From Fidelibacterota bacterium (lineage in GTDB: Bacteria; Fidelibacterota; Marinisomatia; Marinisomatales; UBA1611), in NCBI GenBank assembly GCA_029936885.1, contig JAPYRR010000004.1:3224-50173 (forward strand): a stretch of 46,950 nucleotides of DNA, written 5' to 3'. Under the pieces are notes generated by a model that worked only from the letters and a program-made list of their open reading frames with translations, was not told where the DNA came from and searched no databases. A program made the position numbers and the translations under genes. Positions within the stretch are counted from its first letter, which is position 1. Each line of letters begins with the position of its first letter. Shown one piece after another: positions 3-18,492 of the stretch.

Positions 3-2303
3 ACGAAGGATGGAGACTATTCAAGGTTCTCTGGAAATTTATCTGCTAGTGGCGGGAGCTTTTTATCAAACGGTAAAATGGTAGATGTGACAACGGTTGC
101 GTCTCTTGGTGGGGTGGATACATCTGCCACAAATATATTTCCTCAATTAAATTCCTTTAATCTAGGAAATATCTCTGACCTGAAATTCAACATAGATGGT
201 CCCATACTGCCTGGAAAAATCTCCTTTTTTGCTTCCGGAAGATTTAAGAAACATGATGGCCATTTATACGGGCAACGGATCTTTCATCCAAATTCATTTG
301 TCTGGGTAGATAGCCTTAATGATTATAGGATTGATGAATCAGTCGGTTTAGGGAATGGGTTTCTACCATCCGCAGATGATTCCTTAGATTTTTTCATTGA
401 TAGTTTAAAGGATGCAAACGCATTTGATTGGGTTCCCATGGATTGGAGTGAGCAGGTCTCAGGTCAAGTAAAGGTGAGTTGGCGAGTAACACCCTATATC
501 AAAATGACTTATAACCGATTGTACAGCGATACAAAATCTCAGGATTATTCTCATGCATTTCGCTGGAACCCCGAAGGGAGAAGCCATTCATTTAATACCC
601 GGACAGGTGATTTAATCAGGATGGATCTATCTTTGAATAAATCCACATTTGCCAATGCCATGTATTCCCGTGCGATAAACCACTACAGGAGCCATTTAAG
701 TCCTGATCCCGATTTTTTCGAGTTAATTGTTGACGATTATAAAGAAACAGGTTATTCAACCAATACACTTGAATCGAGCATTTATTATGTAGATCCTAAA
801 ATATTTAATTATGCCTTCGGGAACAACTTTTATGTCAGCGGTCAGGATATGGATGTTTATAGCCGAAAATCAATTATAAACACCTATAAAGCTGAGATCA
901 CAAGCCAGGTAAATTCAAAGCATCAGGTAAAAGCAGGCGCAGAAGCGAGAAAAACCGAGATCTCCTTGGTTGACCTAACAGTTCAATTGAATCCGAATAC
1001 GGATTTCAAAGCCCTCTATTTAAACCCTCTCATTTCACCGATGCATGATACTTTTGGTGGTGATGGAAGAAATCCCATTGAAGTATCTGCCTATATACAG
1101 GATAAACTGGAATCGGATGAAATGGTGGTCAATATTGGTTTAAGATTTGACCACTTCAATCCGGATTGGAAAGTGTTAAATGATTCAGAAGATCCCAATT
1201 ATCTTTCACCTTTAAAACCAATCAATACCTGGTTTGACACTGATGGAGATGGATCCATTTCAATCAGTGAAATGGATGATAGTAATCTTAAATCAGATCA
1301 AGACAGGCTTAAATCCAACGCAAATGGAGATTCCTGGTTCAGGACCGTTGATCCAAAAACACAAATTAGTCCCAGGTTCGCACTAGCGTTCCCGATAACA
1401 GAAAGCGGATATATGCATTTTTCCTACGGGCATTTTTTCCAAAATCCGAGTTTCAGTTACATTTATGATAATCCTGAATTTGAAGTTCCAGCAGCTTCAG
1501 GAATTAGTTCCACCATGGGGAATGCGGATATGGAACCCCAAAGGACAACCCAGTACGAGGTTGGTTTTTCTCAGCAGATCGGGAGAGATATCGGTGTGGA
1601 AATCACCGGATATTTTAAAGATATCCGAAATTTGAATTCGTCGGAGATCAAAAAGTCCTTTATTGCGGGAGATCGGTACGGTTTGTATGTGAATAAGGAT
1701 CATGCAAACTCTCGTGGCATCACAATTGCAATATCGAAACGATCTCTCCAGGACTTCTCTGGAAATTTGGATTACACCTACTCTATTTCTGAGGGGAACG
1801 CTTCCGACCCAACCGCAGCATTTTACGATGAGGAATCGAATATTGAACCCGAAAAAATGCTCGTACCCTTGGACTGGGATCAACGCCATACTATCAACGG
1901 AACCATGACCTATCACCCCACAAATGTTTCCGGTGTAAGTTTGGTTTTTAATTATGGAAGCGGATTTCCATACACAACCCAATTTGCTGATACAAGAACC
2001 GCATTTGAGAATAATGCCTTGAAACCAGCTACTTATAACATGGATATGAGAGGCTATTACAATTTTGTATTATTTAAGGATTTAATTGTGTCAACTCATA
2101 TCAATATTTATAACCTGTTTGATGTCCGGAATGAGTTAACCGTTTATAATGATACGGGTAGGTCGACCTATTCATTGGTTCCAAACTATACACCCCAGTT
2201 TAGTGGATCACGGTTGAATTCTTTAGATCAATATCTTGTTCGACCAGATTATTATTCCACTCCGAGACAGATCAAAATTGGCGTTTCCGTCTCAATAAAA
2301 TAA
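3..2303 (+). CDS. TonB-dependent receptor, C-terminal part (5' truncated by window edge)
   Basis: Frame is open upstream of the listed ATG (78) to the window start (TKDGDYSRFSGNLSASGGSFLSNGK-MVD). Outer-membrane beta-barrel composition; C-terminal TBDR-like features (INIYNLFDVRNE, terminal RQIKIGVSVSIK). Confidence 0.85.
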   Translation, partial: TKDGDYSRFSGNLSASGGSFLSNGKMVDVTTVASLGGVDTSATNIFPQLNSFNLGNISDLKFNIDGPILPGKISFFASGRFKKHDGHLYGQRIFHPNSFVWVDSLNDYRIDESVGLGNGFLPSADDSLDFFIDSLKDANAFDWVPMDWSEQVSGQVKVSWRVTPYIKMTYNRLYSDTKSQDYSHAFRWNPEGRSHSFNTRTGDLIRMDLSLNKSTFANAMYSRAINHYRSHLSPDPDFFELIVDDYKETGYSTNTLESSIYYVDPKIFNYAFGNNFYVSGQDMDVYSRKSIINTYKAEITSQVNSKHQVKAGAEARKTEISLVDLTVQLNPNTDFKALYLNPLISPMHDTFGGDGRNPIEVSAYIQDKLESDEMVVNIGLRFDHFNPDWKVLNDSEDPNYLSPLKPINTWFDTDGDGSISISEMDDSNLKSDQDRLKSNANGDSWFRTVDPKTQISPRFALAFPITESGYMHFSYGHFFQNPSFSYIYDNPEFEVPAASGISSTMGNADMEPQRTTQYEVGFSQQIGRDIGVEITGYFKDIRNLNSSEIKKSFIAGDRYGLYVNKDHANSRGITIAISKRSLQDFSGNLDYTYSISEGNASDPTAAFYDEESNIEPEKMLVPLDWDQRHTINGTMTYHPTNVSGVSLVFNYGSGFPYTTQFADTRTAFENNALKPATYNMDMRGYYNFVLFKDLIVSTHINIYNLFDVRNELTVYNDTGRSTYSLVPNYTPQFSGSRLNSLDQYLVRPDYYSTPRQIKIGVSVSIK

Positions 2304-2307
2304 TTTC

Positions 2308-5300
2308 ATGAAGACGAAAAAAATACTGATCTTCTTCATCCTGTTCTCTCTTGTGCTTGCCCAGGATGATCCATTAGATAAATATCAAAGATCTACCGGT
2401 TCTGCTGCCAAGGTTACCTCTAATATAGACCGAAAATATGCGGATCATTCAGGAAATCGGGTCTTATGCCGTTTTTACAATTTTGGCGGGATCGGTGACG
2501 CAGGCGGTAGTTTTTCTGGTGTATATCCCATTGGGTCTGGCCATGCCTATTTTTATGAATTTACACCCGTCGTAGCTGCCAGTGTGGTGGATACAAATGG
2601 AATTCGGAGGCATATAGTTTCGGATGGTGCCGTTGCACCCGCTCTCATAGATAATTCGCCGGAAGGAACTCCATGGGGTTTTGAACCCCTACCCGGATAT
2701 GCTAATCCAAACCAGGAATACCTTGCTATGAGTGATAATGAGGATGCCTGGCCGGAATCGTGGCCCAACCGGGAAGATGATTGGGATGGATATTGGAACG
2801 GCCAATATGGGAAATATACCCGAGCCGATCAGGAATCATATTATGTTATAGATGATTTTGATAATGATGAATTTGCATTTTTCCCTGATTCCAGTGATGC
2901 AGATCAAATCAATAGAAGAGCCGGACTTGGTATAGAAATGGAAGTTAGGGGATATCAATGGAATCACCCAGCTGCGGAAGATATTATCATAATAACCTAC
3001 TGGATCACCAATGTAGGGTCGAGCACACTGGATAGTGTTGTTTTCGGGATGTATGGGGATGCAGATGTGGGGGGATCATCAGATTTCTCAGATGATGATG
3101 CCTGGTTCGATACAGAAAATGATATGGTATTCCAATGGGATCATAATGGCTGGAGTAATTCTTATGGTGGATTTAAACCGGTGTATTTTGGCTGGAGCTT
3201 TTTAGAATCCCCGGGCAATCCTTATGACGGAATTGATAATGACGATGATGGAATGGTGGACGAAAGCCAGTTTGATGGTATAGATAATGACGGGGATTGG
3301 GACATTGATCGGGATGATATTGGCGCAGATGGATTAGCAGTTTATCATGTAAATTATCCTGGACCTGATGAAGATGGGACCGAAGGAAATGGCGTACCGG
3401 ATATAGGTGAACCTAATTTTGAGATTACGGATAATGATGAATCAGATCAGATTGGCCTCACCAGTTTTTACGCATCTCCCTACCCAAGTATTAATCTCTA
3501 TAATGATGAAGTCATGTGGAATCAACTTACCCCGGGAACACTACAAACACCGAACCAAAACCTTGACCAAACATTTCTTTATGGTTCAGGATATATTACT
3601 CTAGCACCTGGAGAGAAAAAGAAATTTTCTGTTGCCATGGTTTTTGGTGAAAATATGGCGGACATTATTCGAAATGCAAATACCATGCAAAATATTTATG
3701 ACAATGATTATAATTTTGCTAAACCACCTTTGAAACCTTCTATGACGGCAGTTCCGGGAGATAAAAAAGTCACATTATATTGGGACGATTTTTCTGAAAT
3801 TTCTATCGATCCTATTTATGGTAACGATTTTGAAGGTTATCGTATTTATCGTAGTACAGATCCAGGATTCATTGATTCTTATACAATTACAGATGCATAT
3901 GGGAATATTACTTTTAAGGAACCTATTGCAATATTTGATTTCGACGATGGGCTAAAAGGGCCACACCCGATCGCTTTCAATGGTGTCCAATTTGATATGG
4001 GAGAGGATTCAGGATTGCAGTATGAATTTGTTGATTCCCAAAATGTAATCAATGGTCTAAAGTATTATTATGCAGTTACTGCCTACGATAAAGGGTATGA
4101 CCTTGAATTTTTTGATAAAGGATATTCAGATAGAGAAAATTTACAACCAATTGCACCATCTGAGTGCTCAGTTACCTTAGACTTGGATTATAAAGGCAAT
4201 GTAGTGAGCCTAAGTAAGAATGCCGCAATTGTTACAGCCAATGCAGCTGCAATTGGTTACGTTGCTCCTAATACAGTGCCGGATGGGGAAGAGTTCCTGA
4301 AACATTTAAAAGGGTATGGCTCAGGTATCATAGATATCAGTGTTGTTGATCCTTATGCCGTCCTTGATAATATTGAGTACAATATTGTTTTTGATACACT
4401 TGAAACTGCAGAAGACGTTGTGTTTAGCGTTAGAAAACAGGAATGGGTATTGGAAACGTTGGCAATTAAAGACAGTATTGCCCGAGCTTCTCACGTAAAT
4501 ATTCATTCAATGATCGTTGATGCTACCGATACGATACTTATTTTCATTGATGGAACAGACACTGTCTTCACGGATACAACTTTGCTGGATACCACATATC
4601 CGGTTCAGGTTACAAATGCTTCCGGTTCTATTGAATATCAATATGGAACCGATTTCAGTGTTGACCCTGAAATCGGCTTTTTTAATATCATAAACGAAGA
4701 TCTCCTATTTGCAGATGAAGCCACAGTCAGCTACAGATATTTTCCACTTTATCATTTGAATGATATGTCTGGTGGAATAAATAACCCTGTCTTTGAAGGG
4801 ATGAAAATTGTGGTAATGGATTCAGAAGTAGGCCTAAACGAAGATTCAACCCGCTGGACCATTGGGAATTCGAATTATCGACATACAATTACACCCAGCC
4901 GTTTATATCCAGCAGATTTTGAATTGCAGTTTGAAGGCAACATTGGTGATTCAATCACTGTGGATGCTTATGATACACGGGCACCTTTCAGGGTAAAAAA
5001 TGTAACCCATGGTGATGAACCACCTTTTAGGATCTCAGATTATGACCACGATGATGAATGGGATCCGGATGAACCCATCATGTTACGTCCCTATCCTGGA
5101 GAAATTTCTCCCTTGATCACCATCCGATTTTTTCAGGACTCTATCTCAGTCACGGCAACGGTAATATTTGACACGGTTGAAACAGATTCTGGGCTAATTA
5201 TTTCTGATACAACTCTCTATGATACCACCTGGTTAGATGTGATAGATCCGGTACAGGGTGATGTATTCAGGCTGGCAATTAGCCGACCCTTCTCTATTGA

Positions 5301-5676
5301 TGATGTATACAGTTTTACATCAATCGCATCCAAGATAAATCAATCTAAAGCAAAAGATCAGTTAGACAAAATCGCCGTGGTACCAAATCCATATGTGGTT
5401 GCAGCGTCCTGGGAGCCCAAGCATATTTATCAATCCGGACGTGGACCCCGGAAAATCGACTTTATTAATCTGCCCAGTAAGTGTACGATTAAGATCTTTA
5501 CTCTATCCGGGTATTTAGTGGATGAAATAAAGCATGATGATGTATATGAAAATGGATCAGAATCTTGGAATTTGCTGTCAAAAGATGGGTTAGAAATTGC
5601 CCATGGTGTTTACCTGTTCCATGTGGATGCAGGGGAAATTGGTGAAACCACAGGAAAATTCGCGGTAATCAAATAA
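2308..5676 (+). CDS. Large secreted protein with Ca-binding-like Asp-rich repeats and C-terminal FlgD/T9SS-type sorting-like domain
   Basis: Signal peptide MKTKKILIFFILFSLVLAQ; DGIDNDDDGMVDESQFDGIDNDGDWDIDRDD; C-terminal VVPNPYVV...GVYLFHVDAGEIGETTGKFAVIK. Confidence 0.75.
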   Translation: MKTKKILIFFILFSLVLAQDDPLDKYQRSTGSAAKVTSNIDRKYADHSGNRVLCRFYNFGGIGDAGGSFSGVYPIGSGHAYFYEFTPVVAASVVDTNGIRRHIVSDGAVAPALIDNSPEGTPWGFEPLPGYANPNQEYLAMSDNEDAWPESWPNREDDWDGYWNGQYGKYTRADQESYYVIDDFDNDEFAFFPDSSDADQINRRAGLGIEMEVRGYQWNHPAAEDIIIITYWITNVGSSTLDSVVFGMYGDADVGGSSDFSDDDAWFDTENDMVFQWDHNGWSNSYGGFKPVYFGWSFLESPGNPYDGIDNDDDGMVDESQFDGIDNDGDWDIDRDDIGADGLAVYHVNYPGPDEDGTEGNGVPDIGEPNFEITDNDESDQIGLTSFYASPYPSINLYNDEVMWNQLTPGTLQTPNQNLDQTFLYGSGYITLAPGEKKKFSVAMVFGENMADIIRNANTMQNIYDNDYNFAKPPLKPSMTAVPGDKKVTLYWDDFSEISIDPIYGNDFEGYRIYRSTDPGFIDSYTITDAYGNITFKEPIAIFDFDDGLKGPHPIAFNGVQFDMGEDSGLQYEFVDSQNVINGLKYYYAVTAYDKGYDLEFFDKGYSDRENLQPIAPSECSVTLDLDYKGNVVSLSKNAAIVTANAAAIGYVAPNTVPDGEEFLKHLKGYGSGIIDISVVDPYAVLDNIEYNIVFDTLETAEDVVFSVRKQEWVLETLAIKDSIARASHVNIHSMIVDATDTILIFIDGTDTVFTDTTLLDTTYPVQVTNASGSIEYQYGTDFSVDPEIGFFNIINEDLLFADEATVSYRYFPLYHLNDMSGGINNPVFEGMKIVVMDSEVGLNEDSTRWTIGNSNYRHTITPSRLYPADFELQFEGNIGDSITVDAYDTRAPFRVKNVTHGDEPPFRISDYDHDDEWDPDEPIMLRPYPGEISPLITIRFFQDSISVTATVIFDTVETDSGLIISDTTLYDTTWLDVIDPVQGDVFRLAISRPFSIDDVYSFTSIASKINQSKAKDQLDKIAVVPNPYVVAASWEPKHIYQSGRGPRKIDFINLPSKCTIKIFTLSGYLVDEIKHDDVYENGSESWNLLSKDGLEIAHGVYLFHVDAGEIGETTGKFAVIK

Positions 5677-6674
5677 TGAAACAAATTCTATATATAGTTA
5701 CGCTAACGATTGGGCTATTATCAGCACAAACTAATGTGGCAACAACTTCAGCAGCTTTTCTTGAAATTGGTGCAGGCGCTCGATCCTTATCCATGGGAAG
5801 TGCTTTTGTGGCATTAGCTGATGATGTGAGCGCCCTTTATTGGAATCCTGCTGGAATCGCAGAATTGGATCAAGTCTCCACCCATGTGTATCATTCTCCC
5901 TGGCTTGTGGACACAGACTATTATCATGGTGGTGCGGTTATTCCCATGGGGAATCTTGGATCTATTGGTGTGTCTTACTCAGGAGTGACTATGGAAGAGA
6001 TGGATGTAAGAACAGTAACCTATCCGGATGGCACAGGGGAGAAATTCAGCGTGAGTAATGTTGCCATGGGACTCACTTATGCAAAACGGCTGACAGATCG
6101 ATTCACCTTTGGGGTTCAGGCTAAAATGGTCCAGGAAAAAATCTGGCAAATGCATGCCAAAGGGCTATCCATTGATATTGGTTCCCTTTTTACCACGTCA
6201 GGTGGGCTACGGATCGGGATGAGCGTATCCAATTTTGGTGGAAAATTGCAAATGGAGGGGATAAACACCCTTATTGATTATGATCCGGATGAAACAATTT
6301 ACGGGAACAATGATCGGATTGATGCCTTTCTGAATTCAGCAAAATGGCCTTTACCACTTCTGTTTAGATTTGGCGTAAGTAAATCTTATGACATCACCCT
6401 TGGACAAAAAATTACCATTGCTGTAGATGGAATTCATCCAAACAATAATGTTGAATATGTAAATGCTGGAGTTGAATATAATATAAATGATATTTTGTTT
6501 TTAAGAGCAGGGCAATCCCATGGTTTTATGGATGATGCAGAACAAGGACTTTCCTTTGGTTTTGGACTAAATTATCAAATTCCCCGTGGTCCCAAAATAC
6601 GTGTTGATTATGTTCAAACTGATTTTGGTGTTTTTGACAGTATAAAAGGCTACTCAATAAACTTTTTCTTATAA
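5676..6674 (+). CDS. PorV/PorQ-like (UPF0164-type) outer membrane protein
   Basis: Signal peptide then TSAAFLEIGAGARSLSMGSAFVALADDVSALYWNPAGIAEL, a hallmark of the PorV/UPF0164 family; ends in F-type barrel terminus. Confidence 0.85.
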   Translation: MKQILYIVTLTIGLLSAQTNVATTSAAFLEIGAGARSLSMGSAFVALADDVSALYWNPAGIAELDQVSTHVYHSPWLVDTDYYHGGAVIPMGNLGSIGVSYSGVTMEEMDVRTVTYPDGTGEKFSVSNVAMGLTYAKRLTDRFTFGVQAKMVQEKIWQMHAKGLSIDIGSLFTTSGGLRIGMSVSNFGGKLQMEGINTLIDYDPDETIYGNNDRIDAFLNSAKWPLPLLFRFGVSKSYDITLGQKITIAVDGIHPNNNVEYVNAGVEYNINDILFLRAGQSHGFMDDAEQGLSFGFGLNYQIPRGPKIRVDYVQTDFGVFDSIKGYSINFFL

Positions 6675-8588: not shown

Positions 8589-9881
8589 ATGATAGTCAAT
8601 AACAAAACTATATTAATGGGATTACTCTTTATTTCTCTGGCTTTTTCAACCGGGTTAAATAAAATTGAAAAGACAATACAAACCTATGTTGATAAGCATA
8701 CAGAAGAAGCGATAAACCTAATTGAGAAAGTGGTGAATATCAATAGTGGAACCCTCAATATTGGTGGCAATAAAGCTGTTGGAGAAATATTCCAGACCGA
8801 ATTGGATCAACTTGGATTTACCACTTACTGGGTGACTTACCCCGAAACTGTCAAACGTTCCGGACATCTTTTTGCGGAAATGCGCGGTGGTAATGGAAAA
8901 AAAATTGTTTTGATTGGTCATTTAGATACAGTATTTGAACCTGATCATCCATTTCAGAAATTTATCAGAGATGGAAATACGGCTTACGGACCCGGGGTCT
9001 CTGATATGAAAGCAGGTGATGTATCGATGATTTATATCATGAAAGCACTGGCAAATGCAGGCGTTCTGAAAAACCTTAATTTAACACTGGTGTTTATTGG
9101 TGACGAAGAAAAAACGGGTGGACCAATATCTATCGTACGCAAAGAACTAATTGAAACGGGAAAATGGGCCAATTTTGGATTAGGATTTGAGGGAGCACAC
9201 GGCCTAAATACGGGAACGGTAGCCAGACGCAGTTCTTCCTCGTGGGTGCTGACTACTACTGGCATTCAAGGCCATTCTTCACAAATATTTAAAGAAAAAT
9301 TGGGATACGGTGCTATTTTTGAAGCATCCCGAATTGTAAATACTTTTCGTGAAGAATTGGTGGGAGAGGAATATCTATCGTTTAACCCTGGCACTATTGT
9401 CGGTGGAACAGATGTAGATTATGATCCTGTAACGGCCCGTGGTACAACATTTGGTAAAACGAATGTCGTCTCCCAGGCTGCAACGGTTCATGGAGGAATC
9501 CGAGCCATATCTTCAGCACAATTAGAAACGGCTATGGCCCGTATGAAGGAAATCGCAACACAAAATTTGCCTGGAACAACAGCAAAGATAGAATTTAAAA
9601 TCAGTTACCCGCCAATGGCTCCCACAAAAAATAATTATGCACTATTAGACAAATTAGAATCTGTTAATATAGACCTGGGTTATGGAAAAATGGAGCCTCT
9701 GGATCCTGGCAAACGCGGTGCAGCAGATATTTCTTTTGTAGCACCTCATGTAGATGCTTCTTTGGCCGGTATGGGTCCAGATGGGTTCGGTGAGCACTCA
9801 GACAAAGAAGGTTTAGATTTAACATCCTTCCCAAAGACTACATCCCGTGCAGCCATTTTGATTTACCGATTAACACGTTAA
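8589..9881 (+). CDS. M20 family metallopeptidase, glutamate carboxypeptidase-like, secreted
   Basis: Signal peptide; GHLDTVF, GPGVSDMKAGD, GDEEKTGG, GAADISFVAPH motifs. Confidence 0.9.
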   Translation: MIVNNKTILMGLLFISLAFSTGLNKIEKTIQTYVDKHTEEAINLIEKVVNINSGTLNIGGNKAVGEIFQTELDQLGFTTYWVTYPETVKRSGHLFAEMRGGNGKKIVLIGHLDTVFEPDHPFQKFIRDGNTAYGPGVSDMKAGDVSMIYIMKALANAGVLKNLNLTLVFIGDEEKTGGPISIVRKELIETGKWANFGLGFEGAHGLNTGTVARRSSSSWVLTTTGIQGHSSQIFKEKLGYGAIFEASRIVNTFREELVGEEYLSFNPGTIVGGTDVDYDPVTARGTTFGKTNVVSQAATVHGGIRAISSAQLETAMARMKEIATQNLPGTTAKIEFKISYPPMAPTKNNYALLDKLESVNIDLGYGKMEPLDPGKRGAADISFVAPHVDASLAGMGPDGFGEHSDKEGLDLTSFPKTTSRAAILIYRLTR

Positions 9882-14041: not shown

Positions 14042-15235
14042 ATGCGCATCATTCTCCAATTTGCTATAGTTTTGGGGATTCTTTATCAACCCCTCCACGC
14101 TTGTCGCCTATGGGCAGTTTGTGCAAAATCTGGGCACACAATTTCCACCCTTTCATCACAAGAGACATCCTTTATTCTCGATGAACTCACAACTTTCTAT
14201 TATCAATCAGCCTCTATGCGAAATGGGTGGGCATTAATGGGTTATGGCCAGAATAATGGTGAACCGGTTGAACCCATTTCTAGATCTGATTCACCAGCTA
14301 CGGATGATTCTTTAACGTACTGGAATGCTGCAAATACTTTGATGGACGGTGATCATACATTGGGAATTGGTCATCTAAGGATGGCCACCTCCGGAAATAA
14401 TTCAATACCAAATCCTCACCCATGGATGTTTTACAACAACAGTATCTCTTATTCGCTCATTCATAATGGCACAGTGAATAAGATGCTGTTATATAATTTG
14501 ATTACCAATAATGGCGAGGATGAAACTTGGTTGAATCAGCATGAACCCCAGACCTTTGGCAATGGGTCTTGGAAAGAAGAAGGGTGGTCCAGCGTCGTGG
14601 ATTCAGAATTGATTCTTCTTTATATCATGCAGCAGATAATATTTAATAATCATATTATAACTGGATTGAAAATTGCTTTAACAAATATTATCGATGAAGG
14701 TGTATCGGTATCTCAGATTAATATCATTTTTTCAGATGGAACCAATTTATATGCCTATGGTGGTAATAACGCACTTTCATACATTGATTCGGATGAGCAC
14801 TTTGCAATTATGTCTCTCCCCCCATCTAATAATGATGAAGAAAGTAATTGGACTGGAATTGAGACCGGGGAAATGGTCGTTATCAATGAAAATGGACTTA
14901 CTAATTTCCCTGAATTTGTATCTACAGAAATAGATGATCCAGAATTGCCAGTTCCATACTACTTTAAAATGTACCCAGCTTATCCAAATCCATTTAATGG
15001 ATCAGTAACCATTTTAGTCGATGTTATTTCCAATGAGAATATTGATTTATCGATTTATTCTATTAAAGGTGAGCTCGTTTTTACAACGTTGGTTCATAAC
15101 GTTCACATTGGTAAAAATATGATTCAGTGGGATGCTAGATCTAATCAGAATAAAATGGTTTCATCGGGTGCTTACTTTATAAGAGTGAGTTCGCTTAGCT
15201 CAATAGAGACCCAGAAGATTGTCTTTATAAAATAA
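14042..15235 (+). CDS. Secreted class II glutamine amidotransferase-like (Ntn hydrolase) protein with T9SS-type C-terminal sorting domain
   Basis: 20-aa signal peptide followed by CRLWAVCAKSGHT; GIGHLRMATSG, NPHPW, YSLIHNGTVNKM, DSELILLYIMQ; tail YPNPFNGSVTI...GAYFIRVSS...KIVFIK. Confidence 0.85.
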   Translation: MRIILQFAIVLGILYQPLHACRLWAVCAKSGHTISTLSSQETSFILDELTTFYYQSASMRNGWALMGYGQNNGEPVEPISRSDSPATDDSLTYWNAANTLMDGDHTLGIGHLRMATSGNNSIPNPHPWMFYNNSISYSLIHNGTVNKMLLYNLITNNGEDETWLNQHEPQTFGNGSWKEEGWSSVVDSELILLYIMQQIIFNNHIITGLKIALTNIIDEGVSVSQINIIFSDGTNLYAYGGNNALSYIDSDEHFAIMSLPPSNNDEESNWTGIETGEMVVINENGLTNFPEFVSTEIDDPELPVPYYFKMYPAYPNPFNGSVTILVDVISNENIDLSIYSIKGELVFTTLVHNVHIGKNMIQWDARSNQNKMVSSGAYFIRVSSLSSIETQKIVFIK

Positions 15236-16333: not shown

Positions 16334-17167
16334 ATGATACACCCTATAATTCGTATTCAGATTGAAAATAGTATTTATGATCGCTTGGTGGCGGAATCTG
16401 TCAAATATGCTTTAATCAGTCTTCCCTACACAATCAATAGGATGAGTCTAAAAGATATCCAAGCTAGAATCACAAATATTGCTAAAGGTAAAATATCGGA
16501 AAAACTTTTTCTTCATTTCTGTGAACAGAATGAGATTCCAGTTAAAACTAAAAAATGTCAAACCTCCTTTTATTTACCGGATAAACGAGATTTTATTCTT
16601 GGTCGTGAAGAATGGGATATAAAAAATAATTATTTACGACATGAAGATGACATTCTTTCACCTGAACAATATTTTAATTTACCCGCATTGATTCCTAATC
16701 GAGGAGAATGGGACCAATGGTCCAAAAAAGATCAATGTTTTCATGCTCCAAGCACCGATACAGTATGTTATATGTTTTCTTTTATGAAGGGTTGGAAAGG
16801 TAAAATTCCATTTTTATCGATTGAATTAACAGAGGGTCAAAATGCTTTTATAATAAAATTAATTCAATCAGCTCGGAAGAAAGAAAAACCGTATGATGAA
16901 AAATGGTTTTGGTTAAAAATGACAGAATTAGGGAACGGAATTCCCTTCAAATATCATTTGAATTTTCATCCGGAATTGATTTTGTGTGGTCTGGCACAGG
17001 AAAAAGATTTTTCCCGATTTAATGACTTAAAACCACAGAATTTTCAAAATGGATTGTTTAAAACACGGATTCAGAATAAAGGGATTAAAATAAAACATTT
17101 GTCTTCATTTTTAACCTTGTACCCAAGATTAAAAGAAAAAATGGAAGGGGGCGTACTTATCGATTAA
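16334..17167 (+). CDS. Putative PD-(D/E)XK-type restriction endonuclease partner of the adjacent methyltransferase
   Basis: GKISEKLFLHFCEQ...RDFILGREEWDIKNNYL (E...D...DxK arrangement); convergent with DNA methyltransferase, 4-nt overlap of stops. Confidence 0.55.
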   Translation: MIHPIIRIQIENSIYDRLVAESVKYALISLPYTINRMSLKDIQARITNIAKGKISEKLFLHFCEQNEIPVKTKKCQTSFYLPDKRDFILGREEWDIKNNYLRHEDDILSPEQYFNLPALIPNRGEWDQWSKKDQCFHAPSTDTVCYMFSFMKGWKGKIPFLSIELTEGQNAFIIKLIQSARKKEKPYDEKWFWLKMTELGNGIPFKYHLNFHPELILCGLAQEKDFSRFNDLKPQNFQNGLFKTRIQNKGIKIKHLSSFLTLYPRLKEKMEGGVLID

Positions 17168-18492
17168 GGCTTTTGAAACGTTAAACAATAATGATGGAAT
17201 GTATTGCTTACCCACGTATGTTTATATCCGTAAGGTGCAATTTGCAAATCATCCTGGCACCAAAATCCACACTGCTTAAAATGAATAAACTCTTTTAATC
17301 TAAATGTGAGATCAAATGCCAATGGATAAAGTTTTCCCTTCTTTTTTATATTTTTCACAATAATAGTAAAATGCCCACCGCTTTTTAATTTGACAATAGT
17401 TTTTTCATAAATGTCCATCAATACGGTTACGAAATTCTCATAATCATCCAAATTACCCAAATCATTTTCATGGTCTGAATAATTGGTTTGAAGCCCTTTT
17501 GCTTTTCGGCTGGCCTGTACTTCGGCGCCTTTCATATTCAGCATATCCCAATAGGGTGGGGAAGTGATTACATAATCAATCTGTAGCAAATCAAATGTTG
17601 AAATATCCCGAGCATCACCTTGAATGATTTTATAATCGCAATTCGTGGATATGTTAGAACATCGTTTGTGAGCAATCCCGTGAAAAAGTTCGCTCAATTC
17701 AATCCCATAAGCATGTCGTTCTAGACGAAGTGACTCTACTTGGGTTGTTCCCGTTCCGGACATGGGATCAAAAACAGTGTCTCCCTTTTGGGTGAATTCT
17801 TCCACATACAATTTCACCAAATCTTCAGGGTATTTTGCAGGATGGAGTATTTCATCTTTTGAGCGAGGTTTTGGTTTTAAAATAAACCAGTTTTTAAAAG
17901 ATAAGCGTAAAGGGGATTGGAATCCCATATTTGTGGCTAAGGGTGGATTCAGATTCAGAAAAGATGGTATAGGATTTAATTGAGACTGTTCATCTTTTCG
18001 GAAATAAAGAGATGTCCAAGTTGATCCATCGGGTAAACAAATAATTTTTTCATCTTTTCTTGTGAGATGTTGGGCAAGTTGATTTGATAATTTCCATGCC
18101 AATGGAACCTTGTTGTTTGTTAATAAATCAGTTGGAACCAAAACCCATAAGAATTTTCGATAATTCAGTTTGGATGCATTTTCACCGATCCAATCAATTG
18201 CATCTTTCCATTTTGTATCGTCATTCGTTAAATCTACCGCTAGAAAATCTACCGTCTCATTTTCAAACTCATTTTCTAATTCAATGGATTGGATATGTTT
18301 TAGGACAGCAGCATTAAATATTCCCGATCCAAAAGATAGAACATTTTGTTTGGGTTCAAGAGATGGCTTGGTGAAGAAACGAAGATTACTCAAAACCAAA
18401 GAATCTAAATCATCAAATACGGTAAATGACTTTTGAAAGGGGAGCCATTCCTTTGGCCCCAGATCATTAAAATTGTTTTCGATTATTGCCAT
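17164..18492 (-). CDS. DNA methyltransferase (N4/N6 amino-MTase, SPPY type)
   Basis: FDPMSGTGTTQVESLRLERHAYGIELS (motif I) and DYVITSPPYWDMLN (motif IV). Confidence 0.9.
   Translation of the reverse strand: MAIIENNFNDLGPKEWLPFQKSFTVFDDLDSLVLSNLRFFTKPSLEPKQNVLSFGSGIFNAAVLKHIQSIELENEFENETVDFLAVDLTNDDTKWKDAIDWIGENASKLNYRKFLWVLVPTDLLTNNKVPLAWKLSNQLAQHLTRKDEKIICLPDGSTWTSLYFRKDEQSQLNPIPSFLNLNPPLATNMGFQSPLRLSFKNWFILKPKPRSKDEILHPAKYPEDLVKLYVEEFTQKGDTVFDPMSGTGTTQVESLRLERHAYGIELSELFHGIAHKRCSNISTNCDYKIIQGDARDISTFDLLQIDYVITSPPYWDMLNMKGAEVQASRKAKGLQTNYSDHENDLGNLDDYENFVTVLMDIYEKTIVKLKSGGHFTIIVKNIKKKGKLYPLAFDLTFRLKEFIHFKQCGFWCQDDLQIAPYGYKHTWVSNTFHHYCLTFQKP

Follow-up and report, generated by a model that had tools for sequence, protein, structure and literature searches.

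A putative secreted hydrolase of the class II amidotransferase fold in Neomarinimicrobiota, with an N-terminal nucleophile predicted to be unmasked by signal peptidase I

In textbooks, class II amidotransferases are enzymes of the cytosol, and EgtC is no exception: it performs an intracellular step of thiol biosynthesis, its nucleophile having been exposed by removal of Met. The nearest precedent for activation on export comes from the choloylglycine hydrolases of Gram-negative bacteria, which are exported and lose their signal peptide before the Cys. Such enzymes (bile salt hydrolase, penicillin V acylase) are likewise Ntn hydrolases that lack an acceptor domain and carry a free Cys at the N-terminus (PMC8066178), but they form a separate Ntn family, absent from the Pfam matches and the listed Foldseek matches of the protein described here.

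That protein is encoded in the window (the whole stretch of DNA analysed, 46,950 nucleotides), which is part of a Neomarinimicrobiota (SAR406) genome. Its ORF, 14042-15235 on the plus strand (ATG at 14042, stop codon ending at 15235), specifies 397 aa, in which a 20-aa Sec-like signal peptide is followed by a class II GATase (Ntn) domain that begins at Cys21 and then by a sorting tail of T9SS type. The coordinates and motifs given in the initial annotation (the PLHA end of the signal peptide, the Cys21 codon at 14102-14104, GHLRMATSG, NPHPW, IHNGT and DSE) were all recovered. The features are as follows, active-site residue numbers (R93, N122, D167, etc.) here and below being those of the mature chain:

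14042..14101, plus strand: Sec-type signal peptide, residues 1-20 (MRIILQFAIVLGILYQPLHA), with a predicted SPase I cut after Ala20
14102..14104, plus strand: codon of Cys21, predicted to be the nucleophile at the N-terminus of the mature enzyme; the 68 homologues have either Cys or Ser here
14102..14935, plus strand: class II GATase-like (GATase_4/EgtC-like) Ntn-hydrolase domain, mature residues 1-278, from PF13230, Foldseek and hhalign
14372..14380, plus strand: H91-L-R93, invariant; aligned with GlmS HTR, the Arg with GlmS Arg73
14462..14470, plus strand: H121-N122-G123, oxyanion-hole motif, aligned with GlmS Asn98-Gly99
14480..14596, plus strand: insertion specific to the family, located between HNG and DSE, in which W143, P149, T151, W157, G161 and W162 are invariant; a gap in YafJ
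14600..14608, plus strand: D167-S168-E169, with D167 and S168 invariant; aligned with GlmS DTE, the Asp with Asp123
14981..15223, plus strand: T9SS type A C-terminal sorting domain, from PF18962, TIGR04183 and Foldseek matches to PorU/PorZ

Fold and active site

The assignment to the glutamine amidotransferases was upheld by a profile search, in which Pfam GATase_4 (PF13230) matched at 32.5 bits against a curated cut-off of 23 (E 5.7e-8), and no other protein of the window's genome matched this family over the cut-off. YafJ (GATase_4; structures 1te5 and 3mdn) belongs to the same Pfam family, from which the window protein is set apart by its predicted export and by the insertion that its own family has between HNG and DSE. 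An hhalign comparison of the family with E. coli YafJ (probability 96-97) aligned H-x-R, N-x-HP, HNG, DSE and SDG; Cys21 falls on the catalytic Cys2 of YafJ in the global alignment, while the local alignment begins only at residue 23, and it is position, fold and conservation, not local sequence similarity, that pair the two Cys residues. Against E. coli GlmS, for which hhalign was successful in its local mode and not in its global mode, H91-L-R93, H121-N122-G123 and D167-S168-E169 correspond to H-T-R73, H-N98-G99 and D123-T-E. In GlmS, Arg73 and Asp123 are the ligands of the glutamine alpha-carboxylate and alpha-amino group, respectively. The glutaminase domains of GlmS and PurF have the N-terminal Cys fold and the equivalents of Arg73, Asn98-Gly99 and Asp123 in common with the window protein, but they are parts of cytosolic two-domain transferases that hand ammonia to a synthase domain (PMC9140057), a domain that the window protein does not have.

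Residues invariant in the family alignments include C1 (Cys21, the first residue after the predicted cut), G42, W43, R61, H91, R93, S97, G98, P105, H106 and P107, and further along the catalytic domain H121, G123, K127, W143, P149, T151, W157, G161, W162, D167 and S168. The oxyanion Asn is absent from only two close relatives, L003 (HHG) and L016 (HGG), both of which keep Cys1.

A search of solved structures with the single sequence produced a best E of 0.045, which is weak, and a profile search was significant. An AlphaFold model of the mature chain, computed with 36 homologues as input, had a pLDDT of 87.9 overall and of ~96 over the first 30 residues. Its first Foldseek match was EgtC (4zfk, E 3e-10, TM 0.75 normalised to EgtC), followed among PDB entries by PurF and GlmS, with the tail matching structures of PorU and PorZ. 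EgtC (PDB 4zfj/4zfk/4zfl), the best structural match both to the window protein and to a relative with Ser at its mature N-terminus, shares the single-domain class II GATase fold, and it is a hydrolase rather than a transferase: in ergothioneine biosynthesis it acts as an amidohydrolase that removes a gamma-glutamyl group (PMC9103826). The window protein differs from it in having a signal peptide and a T9SS tail, identity is only 16-19%, and the score against the EgtC equivalog model (TIGR03442) is 30.8 bits vs a cut-off of 218.65. The initial annotation had staked its case on Cys21 lining up with the family nucleophile, and its case is supported: Cys21 is the N-terminal residue of a modelled class II GATase fold that matches EgtC, it falls on Cys2 of YafJ in the global alignment, and the R, N-G and D motifs agree with YafJ and GlmS. 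In short, model and alignments together show a class II GATase fold with the first residue of the predicted mature chain at the nucleophile position and a T9SS tail behind it.

The residue after the cut and the peptidase that would expose it

The signal peptide was called by inspection (Arg2 in the n-region, a hydrophobic core, Pro at -4, His at -2 and Ala at -1), and its predicted cut position is kept across the family. The type of peptidase was judged from 68 homologues with a readable N-terminus. At +1 these have Cys (60/68) or Ser (8/68) and nothing else, and every same-family homologue whose N-terminus is available has Cys as the residue that follows the signal peptide. Another common Cys, at +8, is freely exchanged for I, V, M, L, S, N or Q. 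The eight Ser members (L070, L074, L112, L113, L114_15, L120, L122 and L130) have signal peptides with Ala or Gly directly ahead of the Ser, and they keep H-x-R and HNG, and also D-S-E where it has been sequenced (L130 ends before it). Several Ser codons are in use at this position (AGT, AGC, TCA and TCC), so it is not the product of one sequencing error.

On a tree built without the +1 column from seven of the Ser sequences (L130, a fragment, was omitted) and their relatives, Ser requires six changes, five of them forced by well-supported branches, and a single origin of Ser was rejected (AU test p = 1.4e-5). It was a quick tree with one model and some long branches, and the Ser group was named after the sequences had been seen, though before the tree was made. 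Judged from these sequences, Ser at +1 would have arisen about five times or more, separately. The domain model of one Ser member, L074, reached a pLDDT of 90 and a pTM of 0.90, and EgtC was again its first match. The L114 contig (G241:C171) carries both a Cys1 and a Ser1 paralogue.

A lipid anchor requires Cys, whereas an Ntn nucleophile can be Cys, Ser or Thr. This distinction bears directly on the alternative raised in the initial annotation, that LHAC is a lipobox. On that reading Lgt and SPase II would act there, leaving a lipidated Cys21 that is no nucleophile and a domain that is a binding protein or inactive. A Cys at +1 after Leu-x-Ala does look like a lipobox, and the strict pattern [LVI][ASTVI][GAS]C is found in 9/68 members and a PS00013-type pattern in 8/68, two of these being among the 26 members of the window's family. 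The pattern is not conserved, however, and in eight members, through some five or more separate changes, the position is occupied by Ser, which cannot be lipidated and yet can serve as an Ntn nucleophile, with the other active-site motifs kept. In addition, the residues that follow the Cys are the conserved first strand of the family and not a linker, and a lipid anchor would be redundant given the T9SS tail. For the family as a whole we reject lipidation on the strength of the Ser variants and the non-lipobox residues, and regard it as very improbable for the window protein, with the proviso that single members such as those with L-S-A-C are not decidable on their own.

The residues ahead of the cut point the same way. 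The -3/-1 rule of SPase I is obeyed by all 26 members of the window's family. Among the 68 homologues, H, N, K, R, E, D, F or Y frequently stands at -2 and Pro at -4, as against a typical lipobox of L-[AS]-[GA]-C (PMC9360617). Varied residues at -2 are compatible with SPase I because that position, being solvent-exposed, is disregarded by the enzyme (PMC9360617), and the residues at -2 and -4 fit SPase I and not a lipobox.

There are members that an exact cut by SPase I does not account for. Pro stands at -1 in 11/68 (ten in one clade, plus L078), where close relatives have Ala or Ser, and this too is foreign to a lipobox. Three divergent members have an acidic residue between signal peptide and Cys: L029 (RAD|C), L082 (DE|C) and L124 (SE|C). 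As regards the former, Pro was reportedly among the residues tolerated at -1 in mutagenesis of M13 procoat. The same fold and the same secretion could also be combined with a nucleophile exposed by self-cleavage of a PurF-type propeptide, at least in the clade with Pro at -1 and the members with an acidic residue, since autocatalytic removal of a few residues before the Cys is common in class II amidotransferases (PMC9140057). By analogy with those enzymes, self-cleavage is possible in L029, L082 and L124; as an account of the family it seems to us quite improbable, as in 26 of 26 cases the Cys of the window's own family comes right after Ala or Gly, the residue at -3 is suitable and there is no propeptide. 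Cleavage by SPase I is the reading that we carry forward.

Export and the proposed reaction

The sorting tail reported in the initial annotation (YPNPFNG...GAYFIRVSS) was borne out by two profiles, Por_Secre_tail (PF18962; 36 bits vs a cut-off of 27, E 8.9e-9) and NCBIfam TIGR04183 (E 1.3e-9, likewise over its cut-off). The window's own genome encodes SprA (E 6e-162) and PorU (E 8.1e-187), both over their cut-offs, and has 40 matches to YPNPF(N/K)-type tails as compared with none in a reversed control, so that a type IX route is available in the host. Found together, then, are the attributes of a T9SS type A cargo: a sorting domain, a signal peptide (by inspection), and SprA and PorU in the host.

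We consider it probable that the protein is an amidohydrolase with a single function and the class II GATase fold, secreted via T9SS with Cys21 unmasked by SPase I, and likely acting on gamma-glutamyl amides. The precursor would be exported by Sec, and the SPase I cut after Ala20 would by itself produce a Cys21 with a free alpha-amino group, which would act as the nucleophile with its own amino group as the base. The C-terminal domain would then carry the enzyme via T9SS to the surface or the medium, where, outside the cell, it would hydrolyse a gamma-glutamyl amide, either free glutamine or a gamma-glutamyl compound, of which glutathione is an example.

Hydrolysis rather than ammonia transfer is the natural reading, since the Ntn domain is followed by the sorting tail only, with no synthase or other acceptor domain, and since a neighbourhood comparison of related loci found no neighbour gene conserved across the whole family that might be a partner or hint at a substrate. 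With the acceptor domain absent and the glutamine-holding Arg and Asp of GlmS-type enzymes invariant, an extracellular gamma-glutamyl-amide hydrolase is the most likely identity, the substrate, as read from the conserved pocket, being the weakest step of the proposal. The Trp-rich insertion between HNG and DSE, beside the active site, may be a substrate lid that sets or changes specificity, and for that reason an active secreted Ntn hydrolase with a different substrate (another amide, an acyl-amide or a peptidoglycan amide) has to be weighed, the more so as further Ntn families whose Cys is free at the N-terminus act on acyl-amides (PMC8066178). We think this unlikely, given the invariance here of the Arg and Asp to which the alpha-carboxylate and alpha-amino group bind in GlmS-type enzymes, and given that the closest structure, EgtC, removes a gamma-glutamyl group.

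Distribution and neighbouring genes

The initial annotation had proposed a search for other secreted homologues with the same fusion, and such homologues exist: all 36 aligned members match GATase_4, and 35 of the 36 also match Por_Secre_tail. Full-length homologues (38-65% identity) are present in nearly all genomes of the window's bacterial family, and the conserved Cys and the domain matches among them argue that the family is not a product of chance. Over the phylum its occurrence is patchy. Scanning the species genomes of GTDB turned up 52 loci. Nearly all belong to Neomarinimicrobiota, and Delongbacteria, Cloacimonadota and Electryonea each contributed a lone distant one; the search for secreted forms in other phyla used peptide patterns only. 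An open-access literature search turned up no paper on a secreted or T9SS-tailed class II amidotransferase, an absence that is weak evidence.

To our knowledge, the class II amidotransferase fold has so far been known with a Cys nucleophile. The fold itself is familiar, and what would be new, going by sequences and models, are the location, an activation that is fused with export, and the recurrent exchange of Cys for Ser. In some lineages Ser could be a replacement nucleophile. The broadest claim, of phylum-wide extracellular class II hydrolases that are activated by SPase I on export and in which Cys was exchanged for Ser several times with activity kept, we hold to be evenly balanced between true and false. 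If true, it would mean naturally Ser-based members of the class II amidotransferase fold, and an extracellular nitrogen- or gamma-glutamyl-scavenging step in ocean heterotrophy by the abundant, largely uncultured SAR406. Activation by an export protease would be a simple means of masking the nucleophile in the cytosol until export, and the repeated exchange would provide matched natural pairs, some of them in one genome, for the study of an N-terminal Ser in the active site.

Some relatives are longer (600-1100 aa), with an uncharacterised region ahead of the tail, and one Ser1 member (L070:5869-9042) has a dockerin type I-like end (E 6.9e-5) instead of the T9SS tail. A locus labelled Opitutia/Verrucomicrobiota (L040, PAZC01000053.1) lies within the Neomarinimicrobiota branch of the tree, beside an rpoD-like gene; its contig is probably mis-binned, with horizontal transfer as the alternative.

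Most of the 27 loci in which the cluster of an rpoD-like sigma factor is present have this gene directly downstream of the amidase gene, and DUF885 or PorV-like genes are also found nearby in relatives, the latter upstream in about 12 of them. Encoded within 78-6674 of the window are a protein that by eye resembles a TonB receptor, one of 1122 aa that lacks a Pfam match and ends in what looks like a sorting tail, and a PorV-like one (PF19572, E 8.2e-7). A glutathione pair of the Dug2/Dug3 kind, formed with the M20 peptidase at 8589-9881, was considered and rejected, the M20 gene not being conserved beside the amidase gene. Further along, a 277-aa protein with no Pfam or PADLOC match (16334-17167, plus strand) is encoded convergently with an N6/N4 DNA methylase (17164-18492, minus strand; PF01555, E 2.8e-21; a type II MTase by PADLOC), and the two are a candidate restriction-modification pair, each present in only six related loci.
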